Source of the DNA: Flavobacteriaceae bacterium
GTDB taxonomy: Bacteria; Bacteroidota; Bacteroidia; Flavobacteriales; Flavobacteriaceae
Direction of reading: 5' to 3'
Assembly: GCA_030683815.1 (NCBI GenBank)
Contig: JAUXPJ010000023.1
Span: 1 to 64,000, forward strand
Length of the DNA: 64,000 nucleotides
Part shown: positions 4,190-60,532 of the stretch, piece by piece
How positions within the stretch are numbered: the first letter of the stretch is position 1
Layout of the letters: each line of letters starts with the position of its first letter
The notes under the pieces: model-generated
Database searches by the model: none
What the model was told of the DNA's origin: nothing
The model's input: only the letters and a program-made list of their open reading frames with translations
Position numbers and translations under genes: made by a program

Positions 4190-4573
4190 TTATAATAAGT
4201 TTTTTTTATAAAGCAATTCAACAACTTCCTTATAATCAAAAGACAACGGAAGTTTATTTGCTTGATTATAGGTAAACCAATTGTAATCTATCACTTCAAG
4301 TTCTTGAATTTTAATGATTCCAGACCAATTTCCTAAAAAACGGTAGAACGCTCTATCCTGCCAAATGCCGGTTTTTAAAATTGAGGTAGGAACAAAATCT
4401 AAATTACATTCTTCTTTGACTTCTCTAATCACATTTTGTTCGGCAGTTTCATCTTTTTCTGCCATTCCGCCGGGGCAACCTCAAAAACCGGGATAATTTT
4501 GCGTGTAATTAGAACGTTGAAGCAGTAAAATTTTCTTTTCTTGTAAAATAATACCAGAGGCGGCCAAAATCAT
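4190..4573 (-). pseudogene. Nudix hydrolase gene interrupted by in-frame TGA
   Basis: Read from ATG 4573, the frame gives 127 positions that form a small Nudix protein except for TGA at 4483-4481 (codon 31). The surroundings are NYPGF-stop-GCPGGMAEKDE, where Nudix proteins commonly have PGxW-x-PGG. A single TGG-to-TGA change (Trp to stop) therefore explains it. The Nudix box follows intact: Gly-x5-Glu-x7-REVKEEC (about residues 36-57). Internal re-start at Met37 (4465) would yield 91 residues that begin inside the box and lack the first beta strands, so probably no active enzyme. Everything else looks conserved, which points to a very recent mutation or a sequencing error. It begins 6 bp after the stop of the next gene upstream, as in an operon. 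Confidence 0.8.
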
Positions 4574-4579
4574 AACAAT

Positions 4580-5305
4580 CTAATTTTTAATAATTCCAAG
4601 CGTTGCAATAGCACCAGTTGGTAAGTTCCATTCTTTAGAAGAAATGATCGTTCCTGTTTCGTCGTATACAATTAATTCAGCAGTGTTTGGACCCGAAAAT
4701 CCCTGATTTAGAGCTTGAAAATCAATTCTATTATAACCTGGTTCTAAATTAATATAGACAAAAAAGTAATTTCCATCTAATATTAAATTGGAGCTTATTA
4801 CTTTTTCGTTTAAGAAGATTCTTATCCGATCTCCATCAATAGCGCTGTGGTCTCTACATTCAATTTTAACTGTTTTTGATTTGCTGTTAATAGTTCCTAA
4901 ACTTAAATTGCTTTCCAATTTTAAATTGGTTACATCTTTACCCATCCAATATTTTTTCTCAATGATATCTTTATCCTTTGGCAATTTTTCCATTACCAAT
5001 GGTTGATTCGAAATCGGTTTTTTATCGTTTAAAGCATTTGAAATAGCTTTTTCGTCTATTTTATCAGGATTGTTTAAATCGATATCGACAGGTGGAATTT
5101 TTTTTTCTTGCGATTTAACAGCATCAATTTTTGTATTACCAATTAAAACTTTTTTTTCATCACCCAATAATTGAATTTTGGAACTATCCTTTTGTGAAAA
5201 CCCATCAATGGTATAGCATAAAAGTAAAACGGATATGATAAGCGATTTTTTCAATTGAATAATGTTGATTTTATTATGGGATAAAAATAAACAAAAATGC
5301 TTCAA
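4580..5305 (-). CDS. Secreted protein of unknown function
   Basis: Not recognised. Translation from ATG 5305 gives 241 residues, but the first 17 do not look like a signal peptide. An in-frame TTG at 5254 would start with KKSLIISVLLLCYTIDGFSQ, a clean Sec signal peptide, so TTG may be the real start. After it comes a charged, low-complexity stretch (about 40-110). The last about 115 residues are beta-rich with alternating hydrophobic positions (for example GYNRIDFQALNQG), like an Ig- or CBM-like sandwich. It is the first gene of a short minus-strand pair with the broken Nudix gene 6 bp further on. The function is unknown. Confidence 0.6.
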   Translation of the reverse strand: MKHFCLFLSHNKINIIQLKKSLIISVLLLCYTIDGFSQKDSSKIQLLGDEKKVLIGNTKIDAVKSQEKKIPPVDIDLNNPDKIDEKAISNALNDKKPISNQPLVMEKLPKDKDIIEKKYWMGKDVTNLKLESNLSLGTINSKSKTVKIECRDHSAIDGDRIRIFLNEKVISSNLILDGNYFFVYINLEPGYNRIDFQALNQGFSGPNTAELIVYDETGTIISSKEWNLPTGAIATLGIIKN

Positions 5306-5477
5306 GATTTTTGAAGCATTTTATAATTGTTTGTTAAACTCTTAGATAGACAAAATCCTATCCCCAGCCCTTCCCACACGGGTGACAGCGAACTGGCGAA
5401 GCAAAGAAAAGGAAGCAAAACAGCATAGATAAAAAAAGTTGCAATAATTTTCCATCGATTTGCTATTTAAAAGATAC
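5306..5477. other. Intergenic region with GC-richer repeat fragment
   Basis: No gene is seen. Around 5360-5400 there is a GC-richer stretch (CCAGCCCTTCCCACACGGGT and following bases) unlike the AT-rich surroundings. It resembles the dispersed intergenic repeat debris at 22640, 25690, 35062 and 56594. It separates the secreted-protein gene from the end of the metal efflux operon. Confidence 0.3.
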
Positions 5478-6653
5478 CTACAAATATTGATTCAATGCTG
5501 CCACGGTTTTATGGTAATCTCGTTTTAACTCAAGTAATTTATTGACACTTTCATAGTAAACGCTCAGTTCAATAATATAGTCAATAAGGTTCATTTCGCC
5601 TTTTTCTAACGCTTTATAGAGTAAATTGACATTATTGAAAAGCTGCAATTTTGATTGATATTCATCAGTGTTTTTCTGTAATTCAATTACCTTTTGATGT
5701 ACCGTTTTTAGATGATTATAAAGTTGTAATTTCCGATCTGTTTCCAAATTTTTGACAGCTATTGCGTTTGCTTTTGAATATTTTACCGTGTTTTTATGTT
5801 CCCATAATGGAATGGATATGCCTACGGTAAATCCCTGAAATTCTTGTCCAACAACAGACTCACTTATATAACCAGCTTCAAATTTTGGCAAACTCAATGC
5901 GTTATTTAAGCTCAATTGTTTTTGACTGATTTCAACTTCTTTTTTTAACCAATTTAACAGCGGATTGCTTTGTTCTTGCTGTTGATACCATTGTTCGAAA
6001 TTTTCAGATATTACGGTAACAGGATATTCACTTGCTGTAAAGTCGATAAAAATGCCTCCATTTAATTGCGTTAATTCACCCAACAAAACATTTCTTTCGA
6101 TGTTTAGCAATTCCATTTCATTACTCAGATTCAGCAAATTTAATTGCGCTTTATTGAGTGCTAAAATATTGGTTTCGCCCAAATCAAATTGTTTTTGATA
6201 GGAAGTTGCCATATTTTGGGCATGACTGAGCCGTTTTGAAAGTTCAATCTTTAAGCTATTGGTATAAACCAAATCAAAACAAATTAAACGTGATTTTAAC
6301 AGCAAATCTTTTCTTAGTTGATGATATTCCAGATCTACTTGTTCATTTTTAATATCAGCAATTTGATTTTTATAGCTGTAAGTTGTCGGAAAATCAAATG
6401 TTTGCTTAAAGTTTATATCTGTTCTATTGCCGGTGGCAGCAGGACTTCCCCATAAATAGTTAAAGGCAATTTCGGGGTTTTGAAGGTAAATTCCCGTTTT
6501 ATTTCCAATTTTATCAGCTTCAACTTTTTTTCGCAGTGCTGCTAGTGTAGTGTTATTGGTTTCTATTTCAGACAAAATTTTATCGATATTTTGTGAGAAA
6601 AGATTAGTGTTAAACGCTATTAAGATGACTGAAATTATTATTAATTGTTTCAT
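5478..6653 (-). CDS. TolC/CusC-like outer-membrane efflux protein
   Basis: The outer-membrane channel part of a heavy-metal RND efflux pump. It has a signal peptide (cleavage near residue 20, NLFSQ) and about 390 residues of long amphipathic helices rich in Leu, Gln and Asn, typical of the OEP fold. Examples are the stretches around residues 150-200 and 310-380. It overlaps the 3' end of the pump gene by 4 bp (ATGA), indicating translational coupling in the order adaptor, pump, channel. There is no N-terminal lipobox Cys, unlike E. coli CusC. Metal specificity cannot be read from this subunit. Confidence 0.85.
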   Translation of the reverse strand: MKQLIIISVILIAFNTNLFSQNIDKILSEIETNNTTLAALRKKVEADKIGNKTGIYLQNPEIAFNYLWGSPAATGNRTDINFKQTFDFPTTYSYKNQIADIKNEQVDLEYHQLRKDLLLKSRLICFDLVYTNSLKIELSKRLSHAQNMATSYQKQFDLGETNILALNKAQLNLLNLSNEMELLNIERNVLLGELTQLNGGIFIDFTASEYPVTVISENFEQWYQQQEQSNPLLNWLKKEVEISQKQLSLNNALSLPKFEAGYISESVVGQEFQGFTVGISIPLWEHKNTVKYSKANAIAVKNLETDRKLQLYNHLKTVHQKVIELQKNTDEYQSKLQLFNNVNLLYKALEKGEMNLIDYIIELSVYYESVNKLLELKRDYHKTVAALNQYL

Positions 6654-31711: not shown

Positions 31712-32563
31712 TTAATCAGGGAATGCGACCGGATCAGCATTAGCTTTATAAAGATCTTTCATTTGGGTAAGCGTAATATTAAATTTTCCTGCCATAGAAG
31801 AACCTAGCTGCCCGTATTTAACTTTATGCTGTACTTCGTGACTTTTAGTACGAACAAATTTACCTAATGTCAAGCCTTCCAGAATTAATTTTTTACCATC
31901 AGCGCCGTGACATCCTGAACAATTTGTAGTATAATAAGTATTTCCATTTGTAGCATTTCCGTCTTTACCAACATTTGAAATAGTCATTGAGCCTGTTGGA
32001 TATGTTCCGGAATAAGTAGCGTCATATAACTGGGTAACATCAAACATTCCCTCTTTCATAAATTTTACAATATCCCAAATTTGAGCATCTGTCAGAAGTT
32101 GATTAAGATTTGGCATTTTGTCACCTTCTGTATTATTTGTTGTTGGGTTATAAGTGGATAAATCATATGAAATATATCTTCTTCCAGTAGTTTTTTTCAA
32201 GGCTTCAAATAATTCCTTTGCAGTTTTCGTTTTGGCCAATAAATAAAAGTTTATTGAGGAAATATTTGGACGCGTAGTTTTAGGAGCTCTGTTAATATAG
32301 GCTCCTTTGGTTCCTAATCCATCCCAACCATGACATTGCTTGCAACGGAAAAAGTCACTTGATGTACTTAACTTGGTTAGATTTGGATTATTTTGATCAA
32401 AATTAGATTCTGAACTCCAAAACTTGTCATACATAATGCCCCCGTTTGAAATACTTGCATTGTTGTAGGCTTCAACCAAGGGATCAATAGGATCATCACT
32501 CGTACAACTTGTGAAAATTGAGACAAAAATTAATCCGGTCAAAAGTAAATTCTTTGTTTTCAT
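31712..32563 (-). CDS. Di-heme c-type cytochrome lipoprotein
   Basis: A 283-residue lipoprotein (lipobox FTSC, Cys20) with two heme-c motifs, CKQCH (Cys74, Cys77, His78) and CSGCH (Cys215, Cys218, His219), separated by about 140 residues. This suggests two cytochrome-c domains. The sequences after each motif (GWDGLGTKGAY; GADGKKL) and the distal MPNLNQLLTDAQIWDIVKFM block fit class I cytochromes, in which a distal Met completes the iron ligation. It would sit in the periplasmic leaflet and carry electrons; its partner oxidase or reductase is not in the window. It appears monocistronic. Confidence 0.88.
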   Translation of the reverse strand: MKTKNLLLTGLIFVSIFTSCTSDDPIDPLVEAYNNASISNGGIMYDKFWSSESNFDQNNPNLTKLSTSSDFFRCKQCHGWDGLGTKGAYINRAPKTTRPNISSINFYLLAKTKTAKELFEALKKTTGRRYISYDLSTYNPTTNNTEGDKMPNLNQLLTDAQIWDIVKFMKEGMFDVTQLYDATYSGTYPTGSMTISNVGKDGNATNGNTYYTTNCSGCHGADGKKLILEGLTLGKFVRTKSHEVQHKVKYGQLGSSMAGKFNITLTQMKDLYKANADPVAFPD

Positions 32564-32749
32564 AATAACACACTTTTTTATTTATAAATAGTTTTTTGTG
32601 ATAATTTGACTATAAAGGTATGTAACAATAGTTACATAAAGTATGATTTATATCATGAATATCAATTTTCGTATATTCGTTTGGGATTGGAACGATTTAC
32701 TAAAGTTAACTCAAGCTAAAATGCTTGGCAGATTTCATAAATCGATGTT

Positions 32750-57606: not shown

Positions 57607-57622
57607 AGTGATATTTATCACA
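57607..57622 (+). promoter_or_regulatory. Crp/Fnr-like palindromic site
   Basis: AGTGATATTTATCACA contains the perfect dyad GTGATA-TT-TATCAC and fits TGTGA-N6-TCACA at 9 of 10 fixed positions. It lies 50 bases upstream of the GTG start of the small Cys protein that precedes the copper receptor. The regulator is not in the window. Confidence 0.5.
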
Positions 57623-57671
57623 TATAGATTAAAAAATAAAAGATATATTTATCCTTTAATTTAGCAGATAA

Positions 57672-58055
57672 GTGAAAAATCAAATTATAGTGATTTTTTT
57701 CATCTTTCTTTATCTGGTTGCAATGGTACGTCCATTGAAGCCAATAATTGAGTATTATATCAATTACGATTATATTGTTAATGTTCTTTGTGAAAATAAA
57801 GATAAACCAAAGTTAAAGTGTAATGGTAAATGTTATCTAAATAAGCAAGTTAAAGAAGCTAATAACACCAAAAATGAACAAAAATCAACTGTCCCAAAAA
57901 TTAATTTAGATGATTACCCTATAAGTACTTTAAATCAGTTTGTGTTTTGTGTAAATGAAGTTACATTAAATAATTCAAAACAATTATTTATTATAAAAGA
58001 CTCCTCACAAGATTTTATTAATACAATCTTCAAACCGCCACGAATACTCTCTTAA
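57672..58055 (+). CDS. Small membrane-anchored protein with CNGKC motif
   Basis: A 127-residue protein starting at GTG 57672. A hydrophobic segment (about 4-20) is followed by YINYDYIVNVLCENKDKP and LKCNGKCYLNKQ (Cys about 40, 50 and 54). I recall similar short proteins next to flavobacterial TonB receptors, but know no named family or proven function. The three cysteines, with the spacing CxxxC in the second pair, could bind Cu(I) or another soft metal on the periplasmic side. The middle (about 63-77) is polar and low-complexity. It is 206 bp upstream of the OprC-like receptor on the same strand, so a shared role in copper handling is inferred. Confidence 0.65.
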   Translation: MKNQIIVIFFIFLYLVAMVRPLKPIIEYYINYDYIVNVLCENKDKPKLKCNGKCYLNKQVKEANNTKNEQKSTVPKINLDDYPISTLNQFVFCVNEVTLNNSKQLFIIKDSSQDFINTIFKPPRILS

Positions 58056-58069
58056 TTTGTTACACATTT

Positions 58070-58142
58070 TTAGATTAGCAGTATCCTTTTTTTGTATTGA
58101 CTATGTTAATTAATTTATTCAATCGCAAGTCAGCTAATCTAA
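58070..58142 (+). repeat. Inverted repeat before the receptor gene
   Basis: TTAGATTAGC (58070-58079) is complementary to GCTAATCTAA (58133-58142) with 53 bases between. It lies just after the small Cys gene and upstream of the receptor, and could be an attenuator-like structure in their shared transcript. Confidence 0.35.
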
Positions 58143-58261
58143 GGTGTATTCGCGCGCGTACTATTTACTGCTTAAGATGTCTTTTACAAAAGGTCAGTTA
58201 ACTTTAAATAGTATTAGCAAAAAAATCATATTATAGACTCAGAATTAATTCAAATTATAAA

Positions 58262-60532
58262 ATGAAAAATAAGTTAATACTTAATTTTTTAGCAGTTCTT
58301 ATTGCTACAGTTTCATATTCACAATCTACAAGTGTCAGTGGGTTAATAGTTGACAAAAATACGAACAATCCTATAGGGTATGCTACTATTAAAGTTTTAA
58401 AAAACAATATTTTAGCTATAACAAACAGTAAGGGAGATTTTACTATTCAAGCTGAAATTGGGGATAAAATTGAAATTTCGCATGTGAGTTACAAAACGGT
58501 TACTACATTGTTGGGAAATCAACTAACAATAAAATTAGAATCAGCTCAAATCGATTTAAATGAGATTATTGTTTCTGCTAATCCGTTACAAGATATTTCA
58601 CAATCTATAGTTATAAATGATGCAGAAAAAAAAATAAGTCAACCGCGCAGTGTGGGTAATTTATTTAGAGATATAAAAGGGTTTGGAATTGTTAAAAGAG
58701 GAGCCTATGCATCAGAACCCGTTTTTCGTTCGTTTAAATATGAACAATTAAATATTCAATATGATGGCGGAATGAAAGTACTCAACGCTTGTCCCAATAG
58801 AATGGATCCAATTACTACACACGTTATTCCTGAAGAAATTGAAAAAATTGAAATTGTCAAAGGGCCGTTTACAGTACGTTTCGGGGAGAATTTTGGTGGG
58901 ATTATAAATTTAGTTTCAAGAAATCCGACAAAAAACCAGTTAGGATTTCACGGAAGTGTTGAAGGTGGCTACGAAACTAATGGAGGTAATTTAGTAAATG
59001 GAGCTACATTATTATACGCAGATAAAAAATTTGATGTTCTTTTAAATGGTTCTTATAGAGATTTTGGAGACTATGAAGATGGTAATGGAACCGAAGTTCC
59101 TTCATCATTTAGAACAACGGATTATTCTGTTAAAGTAGGAATAAATCCTACCGAAAAACAACGTTTACAGTTAAGTTGGAGACAATCATTTGCCAGAGAT
59201 ATAGATCATGCCGGTTTGGCAATGGATTCACCTTATGACGATAGCTTTTTAGCAGGAGTGGATTATAAATTAAATGATATATCTGAGAAAATTAACAGCT
59301 TTACAGTGAAAGCATTTTACTCTTATGTAGATCATCTAATGACCAACGAAAACCGTCCAAATTTTAAAATAACTGATTCTCAATCTCCAGTAGAATCGTG
59401 GACGTATGGAGGAAAGGCAGAATTAGTTTTAACCCCTTTAGAAAACCTAAGAATTTATACAGGTTTCGATGCTAATTTAATCGATAGAAAAGGTGATAGA
59501 ACCAGAATAGTTAAGATGATGAATGGTATGATGTTGCCTACACCTAAAATTTTTATTGATAAAATTTGGCAAGATGCCAGTTTAAATGATGTTGGCGTTT
59601 TTGCAGAAGGAAAAATAAAAGTTAACAATTACACAACCGTTACAACTGGTATAAGAGCAGATTTTATTTCTGCGTCAATTAGCGATCCGGAGGCAGATTT
59701 TCTTGTCTTATATGGAGGAAATATAAAAGATGGGACAGAAACAAATGTAAGTGCCAACACATCAATTAAATATCAAAGAAATGGTTTTCAAACTCAGCTG
59801 GCATTTGGTAGAGGCGTACGTACTGCTTCGATGATTGAACGTTATATAAATCACTTTAATGTTGGTGTTGATCCATATGAGTACGTAGGTAATCCAAACT
59901 TAAAACCTGAAATTAATAATCAAATTGAATGGTCGTTTATGAAGAAATTTGAAACAATTGAAGTAGGTGTAACTGTTTTTTATTCTTTCTTGATTGATTA
60001 TATTACAGCAGAGGTTAACACAAGTATCCCACGTAAATTTATGCCGACTGCTCCGCCGGTTTATACCAAACAATTTATAAATATTGATGAAGCTTCACAA
60101 ACAGGTGTTGAATTTACATTTAACGTAAAAGTGTCAGATAAAATCACTTTTACATCTGATGTTTCTTATACACATGCCAAGAATAAAGATTTTAATGAAC
60201 CATTGGCGCAAATACCTCCATTTATGGCAAACTTAGGGGTAAAATATGAAGAATCTAAATTCTGGGTAGCTCTAAATTCGAAATTGGTAGGAGCTCAGTC
60301 AAGAGTATCAACATCTTTTATAGAACAAGAAACTCCCGGTTTTGGAACAATGGATTTAAGAGTTGGTTTTGAACCATATAAAGGATTCTCAATAGGTGCG
60401 GCAGTATTAAACATATTTGATAAAGTATATTATGAACATTTAAATTTTTCATTTAACAATTCAGACACACTATCTGGTAAAATTTATGAGCCAGGTAGAA
60501 ATTTCACAACTTATGTCAAGTATAAGTTCTAA
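58262..60532 (+). CDS. TonB-dependent receptor, OprC/NosA-like (copper)
   Basis: A 756-residue outer-membrane importer. Order: signal peptide (to about 20), carboxypeptidase-regulatory-like domain (about 22-105), plug (about 115-225, with VFRSFKYEQLNIQYDGGM and VKGPFTVRFGENFGGIINLV), then a 22-strand barrel ending YVKYKF. The plug holds CPNRM (Cys177, Met181), the CxxxM copper-binding motif described for OprC of Pseudomonas. Met-rich loops that might complete the site follow, including MMNGMML (about residue 421). Copper import is therefore the best guess. TonB-ExbBD are not in the window. It ends with a strong terminator. Confidence 0.85.
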   Translation: MKNKLILNFLAVLIATVSYSQSTSVSGLIVDKNTNNPIGYATIKVLKNNILAITNSKGDFTIQAEIGDKIEISHVSYKTVTTLLGNQLTIKLESAQIDLNEIIVSANPLQDISQSIVINDAEKKISQPRSVGNLFRDIKGFGIVKRGAYASEPVFRSFKYEQLNIQYDGGMKVLNACPNRMDPITTHVIPEEIEKIEIVKGPFTVRFGENFGGIINLVSRNPTKNQLGFHGSVEGGYETNGGNLVNGATLLYADKKFDVLLNGSYRDFGDYEDGNGTEVPSSFRTTDYSVKVGINPTEKQRLQLSWRQSFARDIDHAGLAMDSPYDDSFLAGVDYKLNDISEKINSFTVKAFYSYVDHLMTNENRPNFKITDSQSPVESWTYGGKAELVLTPLENLRIYTGFDANLIDRKGDRTRIVKMMNGMMLPTPKIFIDKIWQDASLNDVGVFAEGKIKVNNYTTVTTGIRADFISASISDPEADFLVLYGGNIKDGTETNVSANTSIKYQRNGFQTQLAFGRGVRTASMIERYINHFNVGVDPYEYVGNPNLKPEINNQIEWSFMKKFETIEVGVTVFYSFLIDYITAEVNTSIPRKFMPTAPPVYTKQFINIDEASQTGVEFTFNVKVSDKITFTSDVSYTHAKNKDFNEPLAQIPPFMANLGVKYEESKFWVALNSKLVGAQSRVSTSFIEQETPGFGTMDLRVGFEPYKGFSIGAAVLNIFDKVYYEHLNFSFNNSDTLSGKIYEPGRNFTTYVKYKF

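Follow-up and report, generated by a model that had tools for sequence, protein, structure and literature searches.

Two described systems are among the closest to the locus considered in this work, i.e., a small open reading frame (ORF) followed by a TonB-dependent receptor gene at positions 57607-60532 of a 64,000-nucleotide stretch (this whole stretch is called the window) of contig JAUXPJ010000023.1 from a Flavobacteriaceae bacterium. In Bordetella pertussis, the first ORF of the operon encodes CruR, with a CXXC motif and a C-terminal RAPP; expression of the downstream receptor requires RAPP and its control by copper requires CXXC, copper causing Rho-dependent termination within the gap of 162 bases (PMC9426467). 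A cruR homologue lies ahead of oprC in Pseudomonas aeruginosa, MbnPH-like genes occur in such operons (PMC9426467), and the arrest of CruR was later shown in vitro (PMC12992588). In Rhodobacter capsulatus, CutF has a CxxxC motif, a Pro-rich C-terminus and a stem hiding the next start (PMC9973294); it was initially taken as a copper-binding component (PMC8456105). RAPP/RGPP leaders of copper-related genes are reported from a range of lineages but not from some others, Bacillota and Bacteroidota among them, and the TonB-related class of arrest leaders from Gram-negatives generally (PMC12992588). Bacteroidota make up 19% of 5,334 CutF-like proteins, or 40% after normalisation (PMC9973294). The literature search gave almost nothing on copper import control in Bacteroidota and, among the titles and passages listed, no description of the present small-ORF family, its RNA pairing, its pairing with OprC-like receptors or its Crp/Fnr site; the supplement of PMC9973294, which could name members, was outside that search, and the parts of the text of this paper that were at hand describe no Bacteroidota member, OprC pair or Crp/Fnr site.

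The analysis of the locus leads to the conclusions that: (i) it is probably a two-gene copper-import unit with two control layers, Crp/Fnr-type activation and a copper-sensing upstream ORF; (ii) the small ORF is, by its sequence and by analogy, most likely a copper-sensing leader ORF of Bacteroidota, i.e., an arrest peptide; (iii) the ordinary part of the locus is the OprC-like receptor, with an already known site. The initial annotation of this DNA had recorded a receptor with CPNRM preceded by a small protein with CNGKC, and a palindrome about 50 bases upstream of the first start. Both ORFs and both motifs are in place (CNGKC at residues 50-54 of the small protein, CPNRM at residues 177-181 of the receptor), and the palindrome ends 49 bases ahead of the GTG of the small ORF. 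That annotation did not mention the HxM pair of OprC ligands, the Pro-Pro at the C-terminus of the small protein or the gap between the two ORFs. The features are as follows.

57607..57622, + strand: Crp/Fnr-type palindrome AGTGATATTTATCACA, core TGAT-N4-ATCA, also upstream of part of the related operons.
57644..57651, + strand: putative Bacteroidota -7 promoter box TATATTTA, starting 29 bases past the palindrome centre.
57672..58055, + strand: small ORF, GTG start, 127 residues, proposed copper-sensing leader ORF; hydrophobic N-terminus, Cys40, Cys50, Cys54, Pro122-Pro123.
57789..57833, + strand: Cys40-Cys54 codons, C-x9-C-x3-C including CNGKC.
58035..58040, + strand: Pro122-Pro123 codons (KPP, four residues ahead of the stop), conserved in the alignments of relatives; proposed arrest point.
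58056..58261, + strand: intergenic gap of 206 bases.
58262..60532, + strand: OprC-like TonB-dependent receptor, 756 residues.
58790..58804, + strand: Cys177-Met181 codons, CxxxM, plug ligands of the OprC copper site by alignment to OprC.
59333..59341, + strand: His358-Met360 codons, HxM, barrel ligands of the OprC copper site by the same alignment.

Relatives of the small protein were found by protein search in 101 of 198 genomes of the class. Cys40, Cys50, Cys54 and Pro-Pro are invariant in an alignment of 29 relatives gathered by protein similarity (29 of the 30 loci from the protein search, L018 being left out). In a second alignment, of 40 of the sequences at hand, the three cysteines are invariant (40/40) and Pro-Pro is conserved. 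The stretch from Cys to Pro-Pro is variable in both alignments. A scan of named genomes with a pattern demanding CNGKC gave at least 586 confirmed stretches, of which the best 80 («named loci») were analysed; only the first Cys and Pro-Pro are thus independent in this set, and both are present in 80/80. Pro-Pro lies inside the last 15 residues in 79 named loci (the exception is L082), with 1-5 residues after it in 77; among other ORFs of at least 150 residues from the same loci, only 4/720 have Pro-Pro in their last 15 residues. The search did not create this conservation, since 21/80 loci were matched best over a segment that stops no later than residue 111, and each of these has Pro-Pro among its last 15 residues. 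The spacing from the last Cys to Pro-Pro is 64-71 residues in 80/80 named loci (67 in the window). The residue preceding Pro-Pro is His (50), Arg (9), Lys (7), Gln (7), Pro (6) or Asp (1), i.e., [HRKQ]PP in 73/80 and [FLI][HRKQ]PP in 71/80. The predicted structure has a confident helix at residues 2-39, a fair helix at 52-66 and a low-confidence helix at 113-119; past residue 60 the pLDDT (predicted local distance difference test) is 50-69 in blocks. No Pfam or NCBIfam model fits the family: a scan of the 29 members at E 1 returned only scattered weak unrelated matches (best E 0.0059 and 0.0072). Among the filters used for CutF-like proteins in PMC9973294, those on length, Pro-Pro and next gene agree with the window ORF: 127 residues (<150), Pro122-Pro123 in the last 15, and a same-strand next gene 206 bases away (limit 1000). 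Where that paper asks for an N-terminal signal peptide, the window ORF has a hydrophobic N-terminus and the confident helix 2-39. The family may be on the list of that paper, which is said to hold many Bacteroidota proteins.

The small-ORF family heads copper operons in many Bacteroidota, with CxxxM-HxM receptors, MbnP/MbnH and PepSY_TM proteins. Directly after the small ORF, the 80 named loci have a TonB receptor (30), the outer-membrane-like family c1 (21), MbnP (15), family c3 (7) or others (7, including one locus without any next gene on the strand), and 76/80 runs contain a receptor, c1, c3, MbnP or MbnH; the identity of each neighbour cluster comes from Pfam on one representative. The gap after the small ORF has a median of 114 bases (at least 60 bases in 73/79) vs. 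39.5 for later gaps (at least 60 in 74/180). The plan of the window, i.e., the small ORF directly ahead of a CPNRM receptor, is found in 8 of the 80. In a metagenome-assembled genome of Urechidicola (L036), the locus looks syntenic by its flanking ORFs, of 298 and 225 residues as in the window (compared by size, not aligned); its small ORF is followed by a c3 gene and a CTDKM receptor. Starting from receptors instead, the 198 genomes were searched with exact DNA patterns: CPNRMDP gave 7 places in 6 genomes and CTD-type plugs 17 places in 16 genomes. A family small ORF lies within 2 kilobases upstream in 4/7 and 13/17 of them (17/24 in all; the G124 copy holds a stop), so that co-occurrence of the pair, a check named in the initial annotation, is supported.

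The RNA between the two ORFs was also considered. A ribosome stalled at Pro-Pro would cover, by its footprint, the last codons and the stop. Single-sequence folds prompted a duplex test between the segment after Pro-Pro and the start of the next gene, for which the first in-frame ATG was used (some loci may have another true start). It was applied to 77 of 82 loci, i.e., the 80 named loci, the window and L149 (the copy of G165, a genome of the same family as the window); the gap limits removed four loci, and a fifth lacked a next gene. Between the 36 bases that follow Pro-Pro and the 48 that end at the next ATG, the mean duplex energy is -11.1 kcal/mol vs. -7.2 for swapped partners, and 0/5000 permutations attain the cognate mean; the cognate pairing is in the best 5% for 30/77 loci and in the best 10% for 42/77. 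Shorter segments and masking were applied to the 75 loci with gaps of at least 60 bases, with one-per-genus sets of 43 (duplex) and 40 (masking); genus is a label assigned by the analyst from record titles, and unclassified records are counted separately. With one locus per genus and shorter segments, the energies are -6.66 vs. -4.27 (z -8.4). In the long-gap subset (26 loci), the z value is -5.2 for the segment after Pro-Pro with the start and -0.9 for the same segment paired with a stretch farther upstream. With the first 14 bases after Pro-Pro masked, the 20 bases that precede the ATG go from an unpaired probability of 0.577 to one of 0.766, with a gain of at least 0.15 in 43 of the 75 loci and a loss of at least 0.15 in 2. 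With a 24-base mask (48 long-gap loci), the change is +0.186 at the next start and -0.012 in mid-gap. As a control, 183 further pairs of adjacent genes from these loci were treated likewise, each segment starting 9 bases ahead of the upstream stop codon; they show a mean gain of 0.012 (12 gains, 7 losses); the difference from leader loci has a Mann-Whitney p of 6.6e-11 (one per genus: 19/40 gains, 1 loss, p 2e-5). Pairing with the start is strong in relatives of the window locus: -16.9 kcal/mol in L149, among the strongest, and -13.2 in L036. The intergenic gaps of the relatives align poorly. At the window locus, Rfam gave best E values of 0.097 and 0.18, both under the gathering score, so that these matches are not real and no known riboswitch is present; an intrinsic terminator was searched for there and none was found.

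The receptor is OprC-like and likely takes up copper, as judged from its sequence and predicted model. By Pfam it has a CarboxypepD-like N-terminal domain, a plug and a barrel. Its top NCBIfam model is TIGR01778 (TonB-copper), with 263.6 bits for a cut-off of 472.45; being under the cut-off, the receptor is not filed as a member of this equivalog. Its best sequence match in PDB is OprC (E 6e-42), with CPNRM aligned on CPNRM and VDHLM on the ADHIM of OprC. The copper ligands of OprC are Cys143, Met147, His323 and Met325 (PMC8610252); by alignment, the full CxxxM-HxM site is retained as Cys177, Met181, His358 and Met360. An alignment of 20 receptors was made from the window and 19 of the 33 CxxxM receptors at hand. 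These 19 had been selected for CxxxM, thus only HxM is an independent test there, and His358 and Met360 are invariant in 20/20. CxxxMDP is present in 33 of 47 clustered receptor genes in the vicinity of the small ORF, and all 33 also have HxM. With the predicted model (pLDDT 77.9), the first 28 rows of Foldseek are all OprC, and so are the top 13 rows of a second structural aligner (Z 40.9, 606 residues, 2.5 Å, about 22% identity). The OprC-type copper receptor proposed in the initial annotation is supported by the match in PDB, the fold and the four conserved ligands; both aligners give OprC as the nearest solved fold, and CPNRM falls on CPNRM in sequence. In the flavobacterium Bizionia argentinensis, an OprC-like receptor with the same site was pointed out earlier as a proposed copper receptor, and the gene table shows CcoG, a P-type ATPase and NosL near it (PMC11213822).

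The palindrome had been called Crp/Fnr-like in the initial annotation. Its letters alone prove little, because counts are near chance in window and genome: the 16-mer with up to 3 mismatches is found 3 times in the window vs. 1.5 expected, and the 14-base core, one mismatch allowed, has 5 occurrences genome-wide vs. 3 for the reversed control. The arrangement is more informative. The Bacteroidota -7 promoter consensus is TAnnTTTG, and a spacing of 29-30 bases is the geometry of class II activation. In the window the distance from the palindrome centre to the box is 29 bases, the last base of TATATTTA departing from the consensus. TGATN4ATCA followed by TAnnTTT after 23-24 bases occurs 12 times in the genome (2 of them within other-strand ORFs) and 0 times for the reversed control. 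In G165, which has the small ORF and a CPNRM receptor, TGTGATTTTAATCACA lies 29 bases before TATTTTTG; in G194, of the same family too, TATGATTAAAATCATA lies 30 bases before TATCTTTG. An exact TGATN4ATCA or CRP-like site is present within 250 bases upstream in 6/80 named loci (0.94 for shuffles, 2 for the downstream control), and 5 of these 6 have TAnnTTTG at 29-30 bases. With up to 2/8 mismatches, a site lies at exactly 29 or 30 bases for 22/54 TAnnTTTG boxes, while each of the other 48 distances has 0-2; these 22 boxes belong, by title, to Aequorivita (10) and to nine other genera. Other genes of the same loci give 9/184 boxes vs. a mean of 3.3 for two distances, i.e., a mild general excess. 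As judged from its position, the palindrome is a real Crp/Fnr-type site: the distance to the -7 box, the genome count against the reversed control and the recurrence in related operons all agree with the first assignment.

The genome of the window contains five Crp/Fnr helix-turn-helix genes, ccoNO, ccoG and ccoI, a cbb3 cluster with its own Crp/Fnr gene, nor-like genes (by eye) and a NosZ (TIGR04246, 934 bits) that we take to be of the clade II type. The genes after the 12 genome arrangements, read by eye, include a Crp/Fnr regulator, a HemG-like flavodoxin and Hsp20. In the window, at 31715-32655 (- strand), a gene with two cytochrome c domains (Pfam) has TGATATAAATCA at the same class II distance upstream (32614-32655) and could belong to one Crp/Fnr regulon with the small ORF. 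A Crp/Fnr gene is divergent beside the small ORF in L111, L113, L115 and G194 (by Pfam for L111 and G194). In L111 (6254-6985), the divergent Crp/Fnr gene and the small ORF seem to share a single palindrome. In L148, the Crp/Fnr gene that diverges from the small ORF is followed by a gene (4389-5597) for a hydrophobic protein of 402 residues, with no match in Pfam.

The following mechanism is proposed. In the first layer, to which the sequence lends support, an activator of the Crp/Fnr family would bind 57607-57622 at class II distance and raise transcription, the trigger being probably low oxygen or nitric oxide, when the cbb3 oxidase and the nitrous oxide reductase need copper. In the second layer, the nascent chain, anchored or exported by its hydrophobic N-terminus, would offer its three cysteines to Cu(I). 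When copper is absent, the ribosome would stall at the C-terminal Lys-Pro-Pro; covering the last codons and the stop, it would block their RNA pairing with the next start, and the OprC-like receptor would be made (in the window copy the stalled ribosome perhaps blocks Rho instead). When copper is present, arrest would be relieved, the ribosome would depart and receptor synthesis would drop. The receptor would import ionic copper via its CxxxM-HxM site. A wider proposal is advanced tentatively, as somewhat short of probable: widespread copper-responsive arrest peptides of Bacteroidota, of their own sequence type and with a new motif (mostly [FLI][HRKQ]PP), would sense periplasmic copper by three cysteines; their arrest would open a stem hiding the starts of copper-import genes (OprC-like receptors, MbnP/MbnH), partly stacked on an FNR-type activator, so that import would need low oxygen and low copper.

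A number of observations weigh against this interpretation. (i) Concerning RNA, the shuffle z is at or below -2 in only 13/43 one-per-genus loci, and the mid-gap/start control of the long-gap subset is slightly low too (z -2.0, 130/5000). The window copy itself pairs weakly with its start (-5.3 kcal/mol, 58th percentile, shuffle z +0.3), masking after Pro-Pro gives no gain in access to this start, and the fold of the gap is not more stable than that of shuffled sequences (z -1.15). Possible stems touching the gap (+ strand) are 58041-58047/58145-58151, 58071-58080/58133-58142 and 58054-58060/58251-58257, none above chance. (ii) Concerning the Crp/Fnr site, the 8 named loci with the gene order of the window have no exact TGATN4ATCA in the 250 bases upstream, nor a site at 29-30 bases even with up to 2 mismatches; the site is thus not universal, since with this gene order it is seen only in the window and G165. 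(iii) At the other 7/24 receptor places, which were read, no family small ORF was seen. (iv) Concerning CruR, the distance from Cys to Pro-Pro is 45 residues vs. 64-71 here, and RAPP is replaced by mostly [HRKQ]PP; with this longer spacing the Cys would stand farther outside the ribosome, perhaps in the periplasm. DUF2946 (PF11162), the Pfam family of CruR, was tried for the small family and rejected: none of the 29 members matches it at E 1, and 2 of the 198 genomes match it, at places other than the small ORF. A plasmid search made towards a profile comparison with DUF2946 returned mostly CzcI-type proteins. (v) The literature search returned no copper-binding, arrest or expression data for any family member.

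Four other explanations were weighed. The nulls in the window copy lead to the view that start hiding is supported for the family by prediction, but that Rho-dependent termination or another route may apply in the window. A leader ORF whose window copy works by CruR-type termination in the gap would suit the length of this gap (206 bases vs. 162 for CruR), a start-hiding stem not above chance and the lack of a detected intrinsic terminator; we consider it rather unlikely, given the predicted start pairing of the relatives in G165 and Urechidicola. The sign of the control could also be reversed, copper promoting arrest as reported for CutF (PMC9973294), so that the downstream genes rise with copper. 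CutF has CxxxC and a start-hiding stem, the latter being predicted in the relatives studied here, but it controls a multicopper oxidase, and the next genes here look like importers, for which the logic of CruR (off with copper) would fit better; copper-promoted arrest is thus hardly probable.

The initial annotation had seen in the small protein a copper receiver or assembly factor, i.e., a membrane-anchored product acting in trans and taking copper from the receptor. Its three conserved cysteines behind a hydrophobic N-terminus and its linkage to copper receptors, MbnP and MbnH would agree with such a role, and CutF too was first read as a copper-binding component (PMC8456105). However, the model shows little fold past two helices, the middle of the protein is not conserved while the Pro-Pro at its extreme end is, the last codons of relatives are predicted to pair with the next start, and the next gene is not a receptor in 50/80 loci. 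The protein is therefore probably not a copper receiver, and we hold this explanation improbable: three Cys with a near-terminal Pro-Pro (1-5 residues before the stop in 77/80), at the head of varied copper operons, rather fit a leader ORF acting in cis. The small protein may have an extra role in trans beside its leader function. Finally, the receptor could carry another ligand, the small ORF being unrelated to copper. This would account for a score under the TIGR01778 cut-off and about 22% identity to OprC, but it appears very improbable since all four OprC ligands are retained in 20 receptors, the small-ORF family also stands first in MbnP and MbnH operons, and this receptor motif has already led to the proposal of a flavobacterial relative as copper receptor (PMC11213822). 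The copper-sensing leader ORF is thus retained as the preferred reading.

Further observations concern the neighbours. In L039, L045, L046, L047, L049, L055, L056 and L060, the small ORF heads a third receptor class without CxxxM, then PepSY_TM; this arrangement resembles the CrtA-PepSY_TM pair of Bordetella. In L046, L075, L089, L091 and L100, a second small ORF (cluster c18, 110-133 residues, grouped by BLAST) comes after the first, which suggests stacked leaders. Two regular partners of the small ORF in L036-L115 are c1 (about 340 residues, PF13557 barely over the cut-off) and c3 (about 284 residues, no Pfam match for the one member scanned). EGGCPNRMDP receptors with CxxxM-HxM kept and without family small ORF are found in two genomes of family f62, in L146 (4330-5000) and L147 (3749-6112 and 6951-7601); two-component-like ORFs precede the first receptor in each. 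In G040, which belongs to the class, a DUF2946 match with RGPP at its end (L116, 1399-1794) lies ahead of a TonB receptor-like ORF, so that both leader types may exist in this genome.

If the proposal is true, (i) one small-ORF family, present in about half of the genomes of the class that were searched, is a directly testable copper switch; (ii) the small ORF marks copper-import operons whose parts have unassigned roles; (iii) a metal-sensing arrest peptide with a non-RAPP motif is added to those described; (iv) caution is needed before such ORFs are taken for copper chaperones; (v) copper supply is tied to nitrous oxide reduction and microaerobic respiration in the genome of the window.

The locus can finally be placed among known systems. 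With OprC/NosA receptors (PMC8610252), the window receptor has in common the fold and all four copper ligands CxxxM-HxM; it differs by its low identity, its score under the TIGR01778 cut-off and its CarboxypepD-like N-terminal domain. RAPP/RGPP arrest peptides (PMC12992588, PMC10987492) also have a di-proline near the stop of the leader ORF, while in the present family the motif is [FLI][HRKQ]PP in 71/80. CutF (PMC9973294) has in common with the family CxxxC, a C-terminal Pro-Pro, a hydrophobic N-terminus and a start-hiding stem (here predicted in relatives); it differs by the following gene, a multicopper oxidase raised with copper in one case and probable importers in the other. CruR, encoded before CrtA/BfrG (PMC9426467), is likewise a small first ORF with a Cys motif, a C-terminal Pro-Pro and a long gap, in operons with a TonB receptor, PepSY_TM and MbnPH-like genes downstream; it has an export signal, to which the small ORF of the window is likened by its hydrophobic N-terminus. 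The present family differs from CruR by CxxxC plus a third Cys instead of CXXC, by not being DUF2946 according to Pfam, by its occurrence in Bacteroidota and by the pairing predicted, for many relatives, between the leader RNA and the following start. As far as sequences tell, the family thus shares the overall plan of CruR and CutF, and not their Pfam family, their spacing or their exact motif.

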